Below are positions 36,049-42,894 of a DNA stretch of 64,000 nucleotides, piece by piece. A program made the position numbers and the translations under genes. Origin of the DNA: Chitinophagales bacterium (GTDB taxonomy: Bacteria; Bacteroidota; Bacteroidia; Chitinophagales; Chitinophagaceae); the NCBI GenBank assembly GCA_026936105.1, contig JAIXKI010000003.1, positions 76,688-140,687 of the forward strand. Reading direction: 5' to 3'. Under the pieces are notes generated by a model. The model did not search any database. It worked only from the letters and a program-made list of their open reading frames with translations, and was not told the origin of the DNA. The number at the start of each line of letters is the position of its first letter. Positions within the stretch are counted from its first letter, which is position 1.

Positions 36049-37599
36049 ATGAGGAGAAAAATAAAATACTACAGACTTATATGGCTGAAACATGATCTTC
36101 CTGCCGGCATTTCAGTCTTTTTAGTCGCACTGCCTCTTTGCCTAGGTATCGCATTGGCATCAGGTGCTCCTTTATATGCCGGGATATTTTCGGGTGTTAT
36201 CGGAGGTATTGTAATTTCTTTGATCAGCGGATCTCCGTTAAGCGTATCCGGACCGGCGGCGGGCCTCACCACCGTAGTCGCTTCATACATTATTTCAATG
36301 GGCGATTACCGGGTCTTTATATTGTCGGTAATGATCGCCGGCCTTTTTCAATTATTATTGGGAATATTCAAATTGGGAACGATCGCCAATTATTTTCCTT
36401 CAGCAGTTATTAAAGGAATGCTGGCAGCTATAGGCATTATGCTGATCTCTAAGCAAATCCCTGTTGCTCTGGGTTATGATCAACCGGACTTTTGGTCCAG
36501 CGGCTTTTTGAATGTCTTTAGAGAAGGGCAAGTGCTATCTTATATTGAATATTTTAATAAGCATACGGTAAGGGGAGCCATTATCATAACCATTTTCTCC
36601 CTGATCGTAATGGCTGCCTGGCAAAAATCGGTTCCCAAAAAATTAAGAATGTTTCCTGCTCCTTTGATGGTGGTGTTGGTCGCCGTGCTGATCAACCTGG
36701 TCTTTCTGAAATTTACGGAAAACAGTTCTTTAAAACATACGCAACTGGTTCAGATACCGGAAAATATTTTCAATGAATTTGCCATCCCTGATTTTTCAAA
36801 ACTTTTCAACAACATGGAAATCTGGAAAGCAGGGATCGTTATCGGAATACTGGCATCCCTTGAAACTTTGCTGTGTACTGAAGCGATAGATAAACTGGAT
36901 AAACATAACCGGATCACTCCGGTAAATCGTGAACTGGTTGCCCAGGGTATCGGCAATATGACCTGCGGGCTGCTGGGGGCAATCCCTGTTACGGCAGTAA
37001 TTGTCCGGGGCTCTGCCAATGTTGATGCAGGAGCCAGAACAAAAATGTCTTCTTTTACCCACGGAGTCTTTTTACTGCTGACTGTTTCTCTCGTTCCTTT
37101 TTTATTAAATAAAATCCCTTACGCAGCTTTAGCAGCCATTCTGATCATTACCGGATATAATCTGACCAAACCTAAATTGTACCGGAATATGTGGAGCCTG
37201 GGCTGGAAACAATTCCTGCCTTTTATTTTTACGATCGTGGTTATCCTGATGACCGACCTGCTTATCGGTGTCAGTATCGGATTGCTGGTTTCCATATATT
37301 TTATAATCAGAAATAACTTTAAAGCGGAGTATAAGATACAAAAGAAAAAACAACACGAAACGGAAGTGTTCCTGATCAAACTGAATTCCAATGTAACTTT
37401 TTTGAATAAAGTGAAATTAAAAGAAGCGTTGGATAATATCCCGGAATATTCTGTGTTGACCATTGACGGGAGCGAATGCAATTTCATAGATTATGATATC
37501 CTTGAGATCATCTCTGAATTTGACCGTAAAGCTCATGACAGGCATATCGAACTTCATCTTAACGGAATTCAGAAAGTGAATGTATCAGCGATTCACTGA
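36049..37599 (+). CDS. SulP family anion transporter with STAS domain
   Basis: This 516-residue inner-membrane transporter has about 10-12 hydrophobic segments (about 14-420) with family motifs DLPAGISVFLVALPLCLGIA and GSPLSVSGPAAGLTT. The C-terminus (about 430-516) is a short STAS domain: VFLIKLNSNVTFLNKVKLKEAL and VLTIDGSECNFIDYDIL. Such proteins import sulfate, bicarbonate or other anions in exchange or Na+/H+ symport. GAIPVTAVIVRGSANVDAG is the typical midpoint sequence. No carbonic anhydrase is adjacent; substrate unknown. Confidence 0.93.
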   Translation: MRRKIKYYRLIWLKHDLPAGISVFLVALPLCLGIALASGAPLYAGIFSGVIGGIVISLISGSPLSVSGPAAGLTTVVASYIISMGDYRVFILSVMIAGLFQLLLGIFKLGTIANYFPSAVIKGMLAAIGIMLISKQIPVALGYDQPDFWSSGFLNVFREGQVLSYIEYFNKHTVRGAIIITIFSLIVMAAWQKSVPKKLRMFPAPLMVVLVAVLINLVFLKFTENSSLKHTQLVQIPENIFNEFAIPDFSKLFNNMEIWKAGIVIGILASLETLLCTEAIDKLDKHNRITPVNRELVAQGIGNMTCGLLGAIPVTAVIVRGSANVDAGARTKMSSFTHGVFLLLTVSLVPFLLNKIPYAALAAILIITGYNLTKPKLYRNMWSLGWKQFLPFIFTIVVILMTDLLIGVSIGLLVSIYFIIRNNFKAEYKIQKKKQHETEVFLIKLNSNVTFLNKVKLKEALDNIPEYSVLTIDGSECNFIDYDILEIISEFDRKAHDRHIELHLNGIQKVNVSAIH

Positions 37600-37664: not shown

Positions 37665-37694
37665 AAAAAAAAGCCCCGTTGATCAACGAGGCTT
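37665..37694 (-). terminator. Rho-independent terminator of the candidate RNA
   Basis: On the minus strand AAGCC then CGTTGATCAACG then GGCTT folds as a near-perfect hairpin (37694 to 37671) followed by eight T. It is the likely 3' end of the small RNA and possibly of read-through from the metalloprotease gene. Confidence 0.8.
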
Positions 37695-37840
37695 CAATGT
37701 CATTCGTTTTCTGGTTTCACCCGAATCCCGAAGATCATTTCGGGATACCCCCGGCCGGATACTGATCGTTTTTCCCGGAAGGATTAACAGGTACGGTTAG
37801 GATCGTGGATCATCCAGAACATGAAAAGAGCAAATACTTG
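37665..37840 (-). ncRNA. Candidate small structured RNA with own promoter and terminator
   Basis: On the minus strand a promoter (TTGACA at 37877-37872, then 17 bases, then TATCTTAG at 37854-37847) precedes about 175 bases that end in a strong terminator (37694-37665). Within it ATCCCGAA (from 37746) pairs with TTCGGGAT eight for eight around a six-base loop, and GTTCTGG (about 37820) can pair with CCAGAA (about 37710) to close an outer helix. No ORF fits. I see no match to tmRNA, SRP RNA, RNase P RNA or 6S. It lies downstream of a metalloprotease gene on the same strand but has its own promoter. Confidence 0.5.
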
Positions 37841-37846
37841 TGAGCG

Positions 37847-37877
37847 CTAAGATAGATATATGAAACACCTTTGTCAA
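37847..37877 (-). promoter_or_regulatory. Promoter of the candidate small RNA
   Basis: TTGACA (minus strand, 37877-37872), a 17-base spacer and TATCTTAG (37854-37847). The -7 box matches TAnnTTTG at five of six fixed positions. It points away from the metalloprotease stop codon, so it cannot serve that gene. Confidence 0.55.
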
Positions 37878-37945: not shown

Positions 37946-40900
37946 TTAGTGGATCAGCGCTTTTCCGTCAGCCAGTTTCTTTCCTTCCGAATTTCTGACC
38001 ACCACATAATAAATTCCTCTTGCCGGAATTTTCATGTCAATATTTATGAGTTGATAAGGTCCGCTTACATTGAACATTCCATTATAAACCCTGGCTCCAT
38101 GAGAATCATAAATGGTGATACTTCTCTGAATATTGGAACCACCCCGGTTATAATATGATACGATGAACTTGCCAGGGTTAGGGTTGGGGTAAATGAACAA
38201 TTTACTGCTGGCTGAATCAGCAATGGTGATGATCCGGGATTCATTGTTGCAGCCATTGGCATCCCTAATTTGGACCTGATAATTTCCCAGGCCTGTAACA
38301 TCAGTAGTTAAAGTATTGCCGGTTTGACCTAAAATAGTATCTGAATTATGGAGCCACATTAAAGCTATTCCTGTTGCAGGAGTTGGATTTGCAGTCAAAG
38401 TTGTTGTTAAACCAGGGAATAAATTTGTATAAGGCGATGCTGAAAGATCCACGGTGGGCAAACTGTAAACGGTTAAAGTAACCGGATTGGATACTGTAGG
38501 ATCCATACAGGTTGGATTTGACAGAAGGCAACGGTATTGGTTATTATTCATCGTGACATTTGAATTGGTCAATGATAAGGTTGAAGTGTTGGCCCCGCTT
38601 ATATTATTAAAATTGTTTCCTCCATCTGTACTTACCTGCCATTGGTAGCTGATCGGCTGGGAACTGCTTGCTGCTACTGAGAAGCTTATATTACCGTCCG
38701 TACGGGGGCCTGCTGCGCAGACAGCTCCATTTGAGGGTTGCGTTGTAATGGCAACAGGAGAGACCACTCTCAGTAAAACTGAATCTGATGTTGCTTCAGG
38801 GGAAATGCTTCCTGTAATGACACAACGATATAAAGAACTGTCTGATGACAAGTCCACAGAATTTAATGTGTATGAACTGGAATTTGCGGATGGAATATCA
38901 TGAAATGAGCTACTTCCTTTTTCTTTCACCTGCCATTGATAACTGATGTTTATTCCGCCTGCAGATACATTGAAGCTTGCATCACTTGCAAGACATACTG
39001 TCTTGGGCTCCGGTTGCTTGTTGATCAGTGGTGCGCCTGCAACGGAGATGGAAAAATTAGCTGCAGAGATCGCAAAAAATACATTTCCCAATGCTTCAAC
39101 TTTTATTCTTGCATGAGAAGTGACTGAATTAGGAAGGATCACATCTTCCGCCCCGTCATTAGGAGTGGCGGCAGATAATACGGTAGGGAAAGTAAGCCCG
39201 CCATCAGTGGACAAAGATATTTTTACATTGGCAGTATTGATGGGCGCTGTATCAGTACCGGCAATATCCCAGGTGACTGTAATTGTTGAATAACCGGAGA
39301 AATTTTCTCCGCCATTAGGATAGGTCAATACAAATGGCCCGGCATTTCCAACTACTTTTATTGTGAATGGCGAATCAAAACCGGATTGACAGCCTCCGGT
39401 GCCTCCCGATGTGATACCGCCACCCCCTGCACGGTTATCACGTACCGTCAATCTGAAATTCATGGTACGTGTTTTCGTTGGCAACGTCTCACCTTTGTTT
39501 CCGTCCATGATTTGTCCGGCAAGATCAGTTGGAGACAGCGAGTAATTGGAGAGGATCAAACTCATATCCGGGAAAGTTCGTTCACCCGTAGTCTTTGGAA
39601 GTCTTGATCTGAACAAAGGACTGCTTGTGTTCGAATTTCCTCCATTCCATGCTGTGCTGGCTCCAAGATCCCATTCTTCCCATGAATACGATAGTGGATC
39701 TCCGTCGGGGTCCATGGCAGTTGCTGATAGGGTAAAAGGTGTGGAAGCAGGGATAGAGACACCATTATTGTTCATGGCAGTGATCAACGGAATACTGTTT
39801 CCCGTGTTCGTGATCGCAGCGCATGAATTGCCATAAGAAGCAATGTATGCATAAATCTCATCCAGGCTGATCGCATGAAAGTAGGGATCGCTGTGCGGTT
39901 GTATGTTGTCCGACCCGCAAATGCCGGCATAACTCATGATCGTTGATCCGGAACCGGGTTCATAAGCTGTTGAGCTTTCCCTGTTGCCGCCACCACAGCT
40001 GCTGGTTGTACTGTTGAAACTATGATCAGCGCCGAATTGATGTCCCATTTCATGAGCCACATAGTCAATATCAAATTTGTCGCCTACCGGATTGGTCAAC
40101 CCGGTTACTCCCTGTGCCTTGTAACCGCTTTCACAGATAACACCCAGCATGGCTATTCCACCACCACCGGTGCTGAACACATGCCCGAAGTCGTAATTGG
40201 AAGAACCGATGATCGCATCAATAGTTGCCTGGTTTTGTCCCAGCATAGTTGAACCATCATTATTGGTATAGGGATCAGTGGCTCCATCCAGATAGATCAA
40301 CTGATCATTGTTGGAAACCAGAACCATTCTTACGTCAAGCTCTGATTCATAAATACCATCCACTCTGTTGACTGTAGTGGTCATGGCGGCAAGCGTAGCG
40401 GGAACAGTTGGGGCATTAGGCAAACAAACAGCTTTTGCATATTCTCCTGTGCAGGCCAATGCCAGACGATAAGTAAATAATTGTGTGCCTTTGCAAATGG
40501 CTTCTATCTTGTTGGCGATTTTCGGAATGCTTACCGGCCTGGGCAGTGTATTACATAAAAAGGCAGGGCTCCTTTTATTTTCTGAAGAATAATAACTGAT
40601 ATAATTACCGATCTCACCGCGGGCATAAGGATCAATGAATACATCACCGCCGGTAGATAATATTTGAGCGCTGAAACCGAAATAAGGATTGAAGTCAAAA
40701 CGGATCATGGCGAAAGGATCATCAATACCCTGTCCTTCGAAAGTCATGATCTCAGGAAACCTGGCAGCCAAAGAAGGTTCCATAACCGGGCTTTCCCAAA
40801 CATGAAATTTTGCCGTTGAGCCGTCCGGCATGGGTAATTCCATAACGGGCGCTTCCTTTTTATTCCTGATATCTTTTTCATGAGGAAGTGATCTCAGAAA

Positions 40901-41089
40901 ATTGCTGATTGCATTTACATCAAGGACAGAGCCTCTGAATTTTTCGGGAGAAATGTTTCTTAATCCTGCCGTTTTGAAAGCAACGTTGGAGCCGAGGTCG
41001 GAAAAAAAATTATTTTGAGAAAATGAAGAAGTGGTAAATGAAATGAGTGCAAGGACCAGGAATATTGGTTCTTTGATCAGTTTATTCAT
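37946..41089 (-). CDS. Reprolysin-like M12 metalloprotease with T9SS sorting domain
   Basis: This 1047-residue secreted protein has a signal peptide (1-25). After a propeptide-like region it contains the zinc motif in YVAHEMGHQFGADHSFNS, i.e. HExxHxxGxxH, with a Met-turn region TIMSYAGICGS, so it is a reprolysin/M12B-like or metzincin peptidase. Further on are Ig-like and PKD-like modules, among them VTWDIAGTDTAPINTANVKI and YQWQVSTDGGNNF. The last about 80 residues form a type A sorting tail starting FIYPNPNPGKFIVSYY. It should be surface-anchored or released by the type IX system and degrade external protein. Length and domain order are typical; substrate unknown. Confidence 0.93.
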   Translation of the reverse strand: MNKLIKEPIFLVLALISFTTSSFSQNNFFSDLGSNVAFKTAGLRNISPEKFRGSVLDVNAISNFLRSLPHEKDIRNKKEAPVMELPMPDGSTAKFHVWESPVMEPSLAARFPEIMTFEGQGIDDPFAMIRFDFNPYFGFSAQILSTGGDVFIDPYARGEIGNYISYYSSENKRSPAFLCNTLPRPVSIPKIANKIEAICKGTQLFTYRLALACTGEYAKAVCLPNAPTVPATLAAMTTTVNRVDGIYESELDVRMVLVSNNDQLIYLDGATDPYTNNDGSTMLGQNQATIDAIIGSSNYDFGHVFSTGGGGIAMLGVICESGYKAQGVTGLTNPVGDKFDIDYVAHEMGHQFGADHSFNSTTSSCGGGNRESSTAYEPGSGSTIMSYAGICGSDNIQPHSDPYFHAISLDEIYAYIASYGNSCAAITNTGNSIPLITAMNNNGVSIPASTPFTLSATAMDPDGDPLSYSWEEWDLGASTAWNGGNSNTSSPLFRSRLPKTTGERTFPDMSLILSNYSLSPTDLAGQIMDGNKGETLPTKTRTMNFRLTVRDNRAGGGGITSGGTGGCQSGFDSPFTIKVVGNAGPFVLTYPNGGENFSGYSTITVTWDIAGTDTAPINTANVKISLSTDGGLTFPTVLSAATPNDGAEDVILPNSVTSHARIKVEALGNVFFAISAANFSISVAGAPLINKQPEPKTVCLASDASFNVSAGGINISYQWQVKEKGSSSFHDIPSANSSSYTLNSVDLSSDSSLYRCVITGSISPEATSDSVLLRVVSPVAITTQPSNGAVCAAGPRTDGNISFSVAASSSQPISYQWQVSTDGGNNFNNISGANTSTLSLTNSNVTMNNNQYRCLLSNPTCMDPTVSNPVTLTVYSLPTVDLSASPYTNLFPGLTTTLTANPTPATGIALMWLHNSDTILGQTGNTLTTDVTGLGNYQVQIRDANGCNNESRIITIADSASSKLFIYPNPNPGKFIVSYYNRGGSNIQRSITIYDSHGARVYNGMFNVSGPYQLINIDMKIPARGIYYVVVRNSEGKKLADGKALIH

Positions 41090-41256: not shown

Positions 41257-42894
41257 TTAATAATCCATTCCGCCCATTCCGGGAGCGCCACCCGGGTGAA
41301 CATGAGCTTCTTCTTTTTTAGGCTTGTCGGCGATCACGCATTCGGTGGTCAGCAACATTCCTGCAATAGAAGCTGCATTTTCCAATGCAATGCGGGTTAC
41401 TTTCGTCGGATCAATAACACCGGCCTTTAAAAGGTTTTCGTATTCGTCAGTCCTTGCATTAAATCCGAAGTCTGCTTTTCCTTCTTTTACTTTCTGCACT
41501 ACGATGGAGCCTTCTATTCCGGCATTTTCAACGATCTGGCGAAGAGGCTCTTCCAAAGCTCTCTTTACAATGGCAATACCTGTTGTTTCATCTTCATTGG
41601 TGCCTTTCAGTTTTTCCAGCGATTCAACTGAACGGATATATGCCACGCCACCACCGGGAACAATACCTTCTTCAACTGCAGCACGGGTAGCATGCAAGGC
41701 ATCATCTACACGATCTTTCTTTTCTTTCATTTCTACTTCAGTGGCAGCGCCCACCTGCAATACAGCTACGCCACCGCTGAGTTTTGCCAGGCGCTCCTGT
41801 AATTTTTCTTTATCGTAATCAGAAGTGGTTGTTTCGATCTGTGCTTTGATCTGGTTGATGCGGGCATTGATATCATCTTTTTTACCTTTTCCGCCTACGA
41901 TGGTTGTATTGTCTTTATCAATAACGACCCTTTCTGCACGGCCGAGATAAGACAGGTCTGCATTTTCAAGTTTGTACCCTTGTTCTTCGCTGATGACAAT
42001 ACCTTTTGTCAAAGTAGCAATATCGGTAAGCATTTCTTTACGGCGGTCGCCAAAGCCGGGAGCTTTTACGGCAGCAACTTTCAGTGTACCACGAAGTTTA
42101 TTTACCACTAAAGTAGCCAGGGCTTCACCTTCCAGGTCTTCCGAAATGATAAGTAATTCTGCTCCTTGCTGAGCTACTTTTTCCAGTATCTGAAGGATGT
42201 CTTTCATGCTGCTGATCTTTTTGTCATAGATCAGGATGTATGGTTTATCCATTTCAGCTTCCATCTTTTCACTGTTGGTTACAAAGTAAGGGGAGATATA
42301 ACCGCGGTCGAACTGCATACCTTCCACTACTTCCACAGTAGTTTCAGTACCTCTGGCTTCTTCCACAGTGATCACACCGTCTTTTCCGACTTTGCCGAAA
42401 GCTTCAGAGATCAGTTTACCGATGTTTTCATCGTTATTGGCTGATATGGCAGCAACCTGCTGAATCTTTTTGCTGTCGGTTCCCACAGTCTGGGTTTGCG
42501 ATTTAAGGTGATCCACCACTTTGGCAACTGCTTTTTCAATACCTCTTTTCAGGTCCATCGGGTTAGCGCCTGCAGCTACGTTTCTCAAGCCTTCGCTTAT
42601 GATAGACTGTGCCAATACAGTAGCTGTGGTAGTTCCGTCACCTGCAATGTCAGCAGTTTTAGAAGCTACTTCTTTTACCATTTGGGCGCCCATGTTTTCA
42701 ATAGCATCTTCCAGCTCAATTTCTTTAGCTACGGTCACGCCATCTTTGGTAACTGACGGAGCGCCGAACTTTTTCTCCAGAACCACATTACGTCCTTTAG
42801 GTCCAAGGGTTACCTTGACCGCATTAGCGAGAGTATCCACCCCTTTTTTCATTTTATTGCGGGCTTCGATCTCGAAGAATAATTGTTTTGCCAT
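41257..42894 (-). CDS. groEL: Chaperonin GroEL (60 kDa)
   Basis: This 545-residue group I chaperonin forms the double ring that folds proteins with GroES and ATP. The N-terminus [20 protein letters not shown], the ATP loop [16 protein letters not shown] (here [14 protein letters not shown]), the apical domain [14 protein letters not shown] and the C-terminal GGM repeat ([10 protein letters not shown]) are all present. It is second in the groES-groEL operon, 84 bases after groES. Confidence 0.98.

Follow-up and report, generated by a model that had tools for sequence, protein, structure and literature searches.

Small RNAs that act in trans from intergenic genes are represented in Bacteroides, a genus of another order, by GibS, RteR and FopS. 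Promoters in Bacteroidetes are of the type TAnnTTTG/TTTG. 6S RNA adopts a rod-like fold with a central bubble, and in E. coli the gene order is zapA-ssrS. Comparative genomics has provided 104 structured RNA motifs restricted to particular lineages, several of which were judged to be free-standing and whose functions are mostly unknown, according to that report (PMC2864571). Here, we describe a locus on the minus strand, reaching from ~37843 to 37665 of the window (that is, the whole 64-kb stretch of DNA analysed), which is a well-supported noncoding RNA gene; we put the probability of this reading at roughly 95%. As judged from sequence comparison, the gene is best read as an autonomous member of a small RNA family that is confined to Chitinophagaceae and absent from Rfam 15.

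Expression signals and distribution of the RNA gene

The locus is flanked by a gene of the sulfate permease family (36049–37599, plus strand) and a gene for a reprolysin-like secreted protein (37946–41089, minus strand). An earlier note on this DNA had proposed a free-standing sRNA gene at this site, comprising about 175 bases without an ORF between a promoter and a minus-strand terminator. Indeed, no ORF of at least 50 amino acids overlaps the RNA stretch. The longest ORFs of at least 20 amino acids encode 48 residues on the opposite strand and 26 residues on the minus strand, the latter starting upstream of the transcript. The predicted transcript (37665–37843, minus strand) would comprise ~175–180 nt, with its start placed according to the promoter and its end according to the U-run of the terminator.

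The proposed promoter is present and consists of TTGACA (37872–37877), of which TTG (37875–37877) represents the −33 element, and of the −7 element TATCTTAG (37847–37854), which conforms to TAnnTTNG. Read in the E. coli manner with a 17-base spacer, this match alone is not beyond chance, as nine such sites occur in 2.3 kb versus 5.9 expected (standard deviation 2.2). Read as a Bacteroidetes-type promoter, the arrangement is TTG-N20-TAnnTTNG, and this pair recurs among the homologs described below: 29 of 35 homologs have a perfect TTG/TAnnTTNG as their top-scoring upstream pair, with a per-sequence frequency in shuffles of 0–0.05, and the spacing is exactly 20 in 26 of these 29. The remaining six homologs carry weaker pairs that stay within the range of shuffles (0.09–0.36). 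On the same strand, an intrinsic terminator (37665–37695) is formed by an 11-pair stem (37695–37670) and a subsequent U-run. It also recurs, with a hairpin preceding TTTT in 34/35 homologs (a count made without a shuffled control) and L051 being the sole homolog devoid of the TTTT run. The gene thus appears to possess a promoter and a terminator of its own, as would be expected for a free-standing sRNA gene.

From the single sequence, the case would be suggestive only, since the promoter scan is near chance and the folding energy of the window RNA is unremarkable as compared to shuffles (z = −0.61). As folding energy alone does not set the RNA apart, the case for a noncoding RNA gene rests on conservation. 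Of 99 genomes searched by DNA, 12 (counting that of the window) gave a match, 11 of these being genuine; the match in G042 (row L011, dropped) was spurious and by eye represents a terminator beside 5S rRNA. The 11 homologs share a core composed of ACCUGUUAAUC, a variable stem, GAAARAC...GUAUCC, a further variable stem, a variable hairpin and AUUCRGGUUGAARCC; in most cases the core is preceded by a promoter and followed by a terminator. A covariance model (R1) built from seven sequences, all from outside the window's genus, recovered the window at an E-value of 5e-15. Across the family, R1 matched 35 of 294 genomes once each, distributed over 16 of 101 genera (E 5e-25 to 2e-8); 28 of these matches lie outside the model and seven are the sequences from which it was built. 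L050 and L051 are the lowest-scoring homologs. Most of the sampled Chitinophagaceae genera lack the RNA, and it looks like a gene kept by some soil and freshwater bacteria. The homologs are related to one another, and counts over them are therefore not independent.

In a collection of named genomes, an exact sequence pattern for the RNA occurred in 33 records, all from Chitinophagaceae genera or from Bacteroidota assemblies with broader labels. They include Terrimonas, Flavisolibacter, Paraflavisolibacter, Segetibacter, Cnuella and Paracnuella, the other records being labelled Chitinophagaceae, Chitinophagales, Sphingobacteriales, Bacteroidetes or Bacteroidota. Flavisolibacter ginsengisoli DSM 18119, Terrimonas ferruginea DSM 30193 and Cnuella takakiae are cultured members of this set. 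A refined covariance model (R2) scored all 33 records at no less than 73.8 bits, several of them being genomes already among the 35 found by R1 and hence not independent. Applied to 248 genomes of the order, R2 returned eight matches, seven of which were already known; G011 (23.8 bits) was judged spurious, as the core is missing from its sequence. Among 345 genomes of the class, R2 found G000 and G007 as well as G645, G658 and G545 at 22–28 bits, the latter three being judged spurious (for G645 upon reading of the sequence). A laxer search of 40 genomes lacking the RNA gave six matches at E-values up to 1, with scores not exceeding 24 bits. These searches may have overlooked very diverged members, because only some first-look candidates were scored per genome, namely 12 for R1 in the family, 14 in the order, 10 in the class and up to 91 in the laxer search.

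Two observations concern individual assemblies. In JAKQEA01, two contigs (L061 and L062) each carry a copy of the RNA near the contig end, with differing model scores, reflecting either a second copy or a mixture of strains. In the window's genus, L004 (from the same genome as L036) contains a stretch with partial terminator sequence, present twice just downstream of the RNA.

As the earlier note had expected, the 64-kb window contains no match to an Rfam family at its gathering score. When the RNA stretch was scanned permissively, eight weak matches appeared, which were not credited, as all of them scored far below thresholds and mostly covered the terminator; the best was isrJ (E 0.06, 22 bits versus a threshold of 37). 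Seven homolog loci searched at E-values up to 0.2 gave no Rfam match either. The locus looks like an uncatalogued small RNA gene representing a new family in Chitinophagaceae.

The conserved fold and its surroundings

The conserved fold is a three-way junction of the helices P2, P3 and P4 (all on the minus strand), which is supported by covariation. P2 pairs ACCUG (37788–37792) with CGGGU (37719–37723), the family consensus being ACCUG/CRGGU. It is followed by the junction segment J2/3 (UUAAU, 37783–37787), which is almost invariant in the alignment. P3 comprises ~8 bp and has the 5' strand CCUUCCGG (37775–37782) and the 3' strand CCGGGGG (37748–37754), the window pairing CUUCCGG with CCGGGGG; its sequence differs by genus, with pairing mostly kept (83.9% of cells). 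The large terminal loop of P3 (37755–37774) carries the conserved GAAARAC...GUAUCC according to the alignment. P4 consists of AUCCCGAA (37739–37746) and UUCGGGAU (37725–37732) and corresponds to the eight-base-pair stem ATCCCGAA/TTCGGGAT (37746–37739/37732–37725) of the earlier note. Its sequence is variable among homologs and accompanied by compensatory changes. Between P2 and the terminator, alignment and base composition delineate a purine-rich linker (GAAACCAGAAAAC..., 37696–37718). Conservation is strongest in the junction and the P3 loop, with the top unpaired nucleotides located in J2/3 and in this loop.

In an alignment of 35 sequences fitted to the model, 91.0% of the cells at paired positions can pair versus 78.6% upon shuffling, and both sides have changed in 11 of 18 pairs; sliding the partner strand by any offset reduces pairing to at most 55%. 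Since such an alignment leans towards the model, a plain MAFFT alignment (A7) was folded de novo. It contained 32 of the 35 homologs, with L020, L029 and L035 left out as close duplicates. From this structure-free alignment, RNAalifold recovered the same three helices, with double changes in 8 of 13 pairs; the consensus energy is weak (−3.0 kcal/mol) and several rows are off by one base. Covarying base pairs among relatives, a check proposed by the earlier note, were thus found in the three-way junction, pointing to a conserved RNA structure as would befit an sRNA gene. Taken together, the analysis yields a conserved gene with promoter, terminator and fold, and the proposal of a free-standing sRNA gene is borne out by homologs in which promoter, terminator and covarying stems recur.

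Among relatives, the inner stem proved conserved, in contrast to an outer helix (GTTCTGG with CCAGAA) that had been suggested to enclose it. The window sequence permits this outer helix, and TTCTGG/CCAGAA is common to several genera. However, it is not supported family-wide: over 35 homologs, duplexes between leader and linker have a mean energy of −6.6 kcal/mol versus −6.4 kcal/mol when partners are exchanged among unlike leaders (Wilcoxon p = 0.62; start sites estimated from promoters). Moreover, CTTG replaces CTGG in L041, a relative of the same genus, with CCAGAA unchanged. As pairing gains nothing over swapped partners and the 5' strand has changed alone in L041, the outer helix was rejected as a conserved element.

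The 5' leader (37793–37843) is pyrimidine-rich, and no conserved pairing was found for it. In the window, it contains GCUCUU (37826–37831) and AUCC/CCUAACC tracts. Over 35 homologs, its pyrimidine share averages 65% versus 32% in the linker. GYTCTT is present in 21 of 35 leaders, representing 10 of 16 genera, as compared to 1.2 leaders on average and at most 6 upon shuffling. C-rich CCT-CC tracts occur in 28 of 35 leaders, versus an average of 4.3 and at most 9 upon shuffling. Both motifs were chosen post hoc from the viewed alignment. Leader length varies from 19 to 52 nt and its conservation is below that of the body. The leader is only moderately open, with a mean unpaired probability of 0.59 in the window RNA and 0.55 over the 35 homologs, as compared to 0.42 for the body.

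Possible modes of action

How might such an RNA act? A Bacteroidetes-type promoter would drive synthesis of a ~175 nt transcript ended by the intrinsic terminator and laid out as pyrimidine-rich leader, three-way junction, purine-rich linker and terminator. The leader (GYUCUU, UUCCUACC), the P3 loop or both may form the surface through which mRNAs are recognised by pairing, possibly assisted by a protein, and the junction body would hold and stabilise this surface. We infer regulation in trans by base-pairing with mRNAs as the most likely mechanism, for which the odds appear somewhat better than even. The RNA would act without Hfq, as no Hfq above the Pfam cut-off was detected in any of 22 genomes (5 of 14 control genomes exceeded the cut-off). 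Two sub-threshold matches (22 bits versus 27) lie inside frames of 229 and 242 amino acids. The hosts thus do not appear to encode the Hfq that an Hfq-dependent sRNA would use.

The context of the gene is in keeping with action in trans. Downstream genes are of many kinds across the homolog loci, and the next downstream gene (in the orientation of the RNA) lies on the same strand in 22 of the 35 loci, on the opposite strand in 10, among them the window, L050 and L051, and is absent from the locus sequence in three. Frequent neighbours, assigned by eye with examples checked against Pfam, are groEL, an ABC ATPase and an amino-acid-permease-like gene; in the window, groEL (41257–42894) is one gene away. 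The varied neighbours, together with the 10 loci in which the downstream gene is oppositely oriented, indicate that the RNA does not belong to any single downstream gene.

A tentative alternative, which we rate at clearly less than even odds, is that the RNA serves as a protein-binding scaffold or sponge, with the junction and the P3 loop binding a protein and no pairing with mRNAs taking place. The conservation of the junction and the P3 loop would fit protein binding as well as antisense pairing, and the most conserved unpaired nucleotides reside in J2/3 and the P3 loop rather than in the leader. A search for antisense targets of the core also speaks for this reading. Complements of the core (11 letters) occurred 45 times in 20 genomes versus 22 times for the reversed control, eight of the 45 being the gene of the RNA itself, and a similar excess was seen in genomes lacking the RNA (10 versus 3 in six genomes). 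Among the 30 of 45 sites examined (6 self, 24 other), no target recurred and no two sites were at similar genes. An antisense target of the core was therefore rejected, as the excess exists also without the RNA and the examined sites lie in or before dissimilar genes. However, no partner protein is known, and the leader motif, present in 21 of 35 homologs, is far beyond shuffles.

It is improbable that the RNA is a cis-acting leader, that is, a riboswitch or attenuator whose expression platform is the terminator, acting for example on an amino-acid permease gene. The compact junction with its conserved loops is reminiscent of an aptamer, a same-strand gene follows in the 22 loci mentioned above, and by eye the permease-like gene is downstream in 14 of 35 loci (the proteins of L017 and L049 were checked against Pfam). 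However, by eye the same gene is upstream in four of the 35 loci, and the mix of strands and the varied neighbours argue against a cis-regulatory leader; the RNA is not consistently located upstream of a same-strand gene.

Similarly poor are the prospects that the RNA represents 6S RNA in highly diverged form or a functional equivalent of it, binding RNA polymerase and having replaced the ancestral 6S in this clade. It is free-standing, yields one match per genome and has a 6S-like length. However, neither RF01685 nor RF00013 gave a credible match in G000 and five relatives. When 198 genomes of the class were searched with RF01685, 14 gave a match, 13 of these matches being below the gathering cut-off and one above it; 13 of 14 start with ACTCAAC or ATTCAAC. 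Of 11 loci of 6S-like RNAs examined in Bacteroidia, nine (L093–L095, L098, L100 and L103–L106) have zapA-like genes, rny (encoding RNase Y) or both as neighbours, reminiscent of the E. coli order zapA-ssrS. The pattern ACTCAAC...GGRGTTT occurred 0 times in G000 and 18 times in nine other genomes, with 5 and 30 occurrences of the reversed control, respectively.

An alignment of 6S sequences (A6) omitted L102, which shows no 6S features, and kept L097 and L106 aside as positives for testing. It had no consensus pairs, and the model derived from it (R3) is therefore sequence-only. R3 recovered L097 and L106, a weak control given that both are close relatives of A6 sequences. It found no match at the zapA loci of 18 Chitinophagaceae (L125–L142), which is a weak test for a sequence-only model; rny-like genes follow zapA in seven of these 18 loci by eye, and L133 ends 85 nt past zapA. 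With 9 of 11 Bacteroidia 6S-like loci at zapA/rny, the apparent 6S vacancy at these 18 loci would fit a replacement of the ancestral 6S in this clade. However, the vacancy itself is weakly shown, and a 6S gene elsewhere may well have been missed, because RF01685 was found in just 14 of 198 genomes of the class, one of them over cut-off; the 6S RNA of Chitinophagaceae may be lost, moved or unrecognised. Further, R3 did not match 14 homolog loci of the RNA, nor did R2 match six 6S loci, and the RNA itself matches neither RF00013 nor RF01685. By eye, neither zapA nor rny adjoins the RNA in the loci listed, and in G000 zapA is on another contig. The three-way junction is unlike the 6S rod, and a closing stem joining the 5' and 3' ends is not found family-wide, although some genera can form TTCTGG/CCAGAA. 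6S identity was judged unlikely on account of the lack of model matches, the lack of a family-wide closing stem and the absence of the RNA from most sampled Chitinophagaceae. Still less probable, and indeed a long shot, is that this unrelated RNA with its three-way junction has assumed a global function, such as control of RNA polymerase, in a clade that may be without the ancestral zapA-linked 6S.

Relation to described small RNAs

Regulation in trans by a free-standing sRNA remains our preferred reading. No literature description of a Chitinophagaceae small RNA was present among the matches listed, and a search of PMC11109978 for four terms found none of them. The family combines a covarying fold with a recurring promoter, and its covariance model can be used to annotate genomes, those of cultured strains included, which makes the function directly testable.

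Like the motifs of PMC2864571, the RNA was recognised by comparative sequence analysis; compared with these motifs through the Rfam alignments, it has no Rfam 15 match at threshold. 6S-Flavo RNA (RF01685) and Bacteroidales-1 (RF01693) are likewise free-standing structured RNAs of Bacteroidota, yet of another sequence and fold. RF01685 matches differ from the Chitinophagaceae RNA also by their ACTCAAC/ATTCAAC start (13/14) and their zapA/rny neighbours (9/11). A further likeness in kind is to GibS, RteR and FopS, which are intergenic small RNAs of Bacteroidota like the candidate described here.
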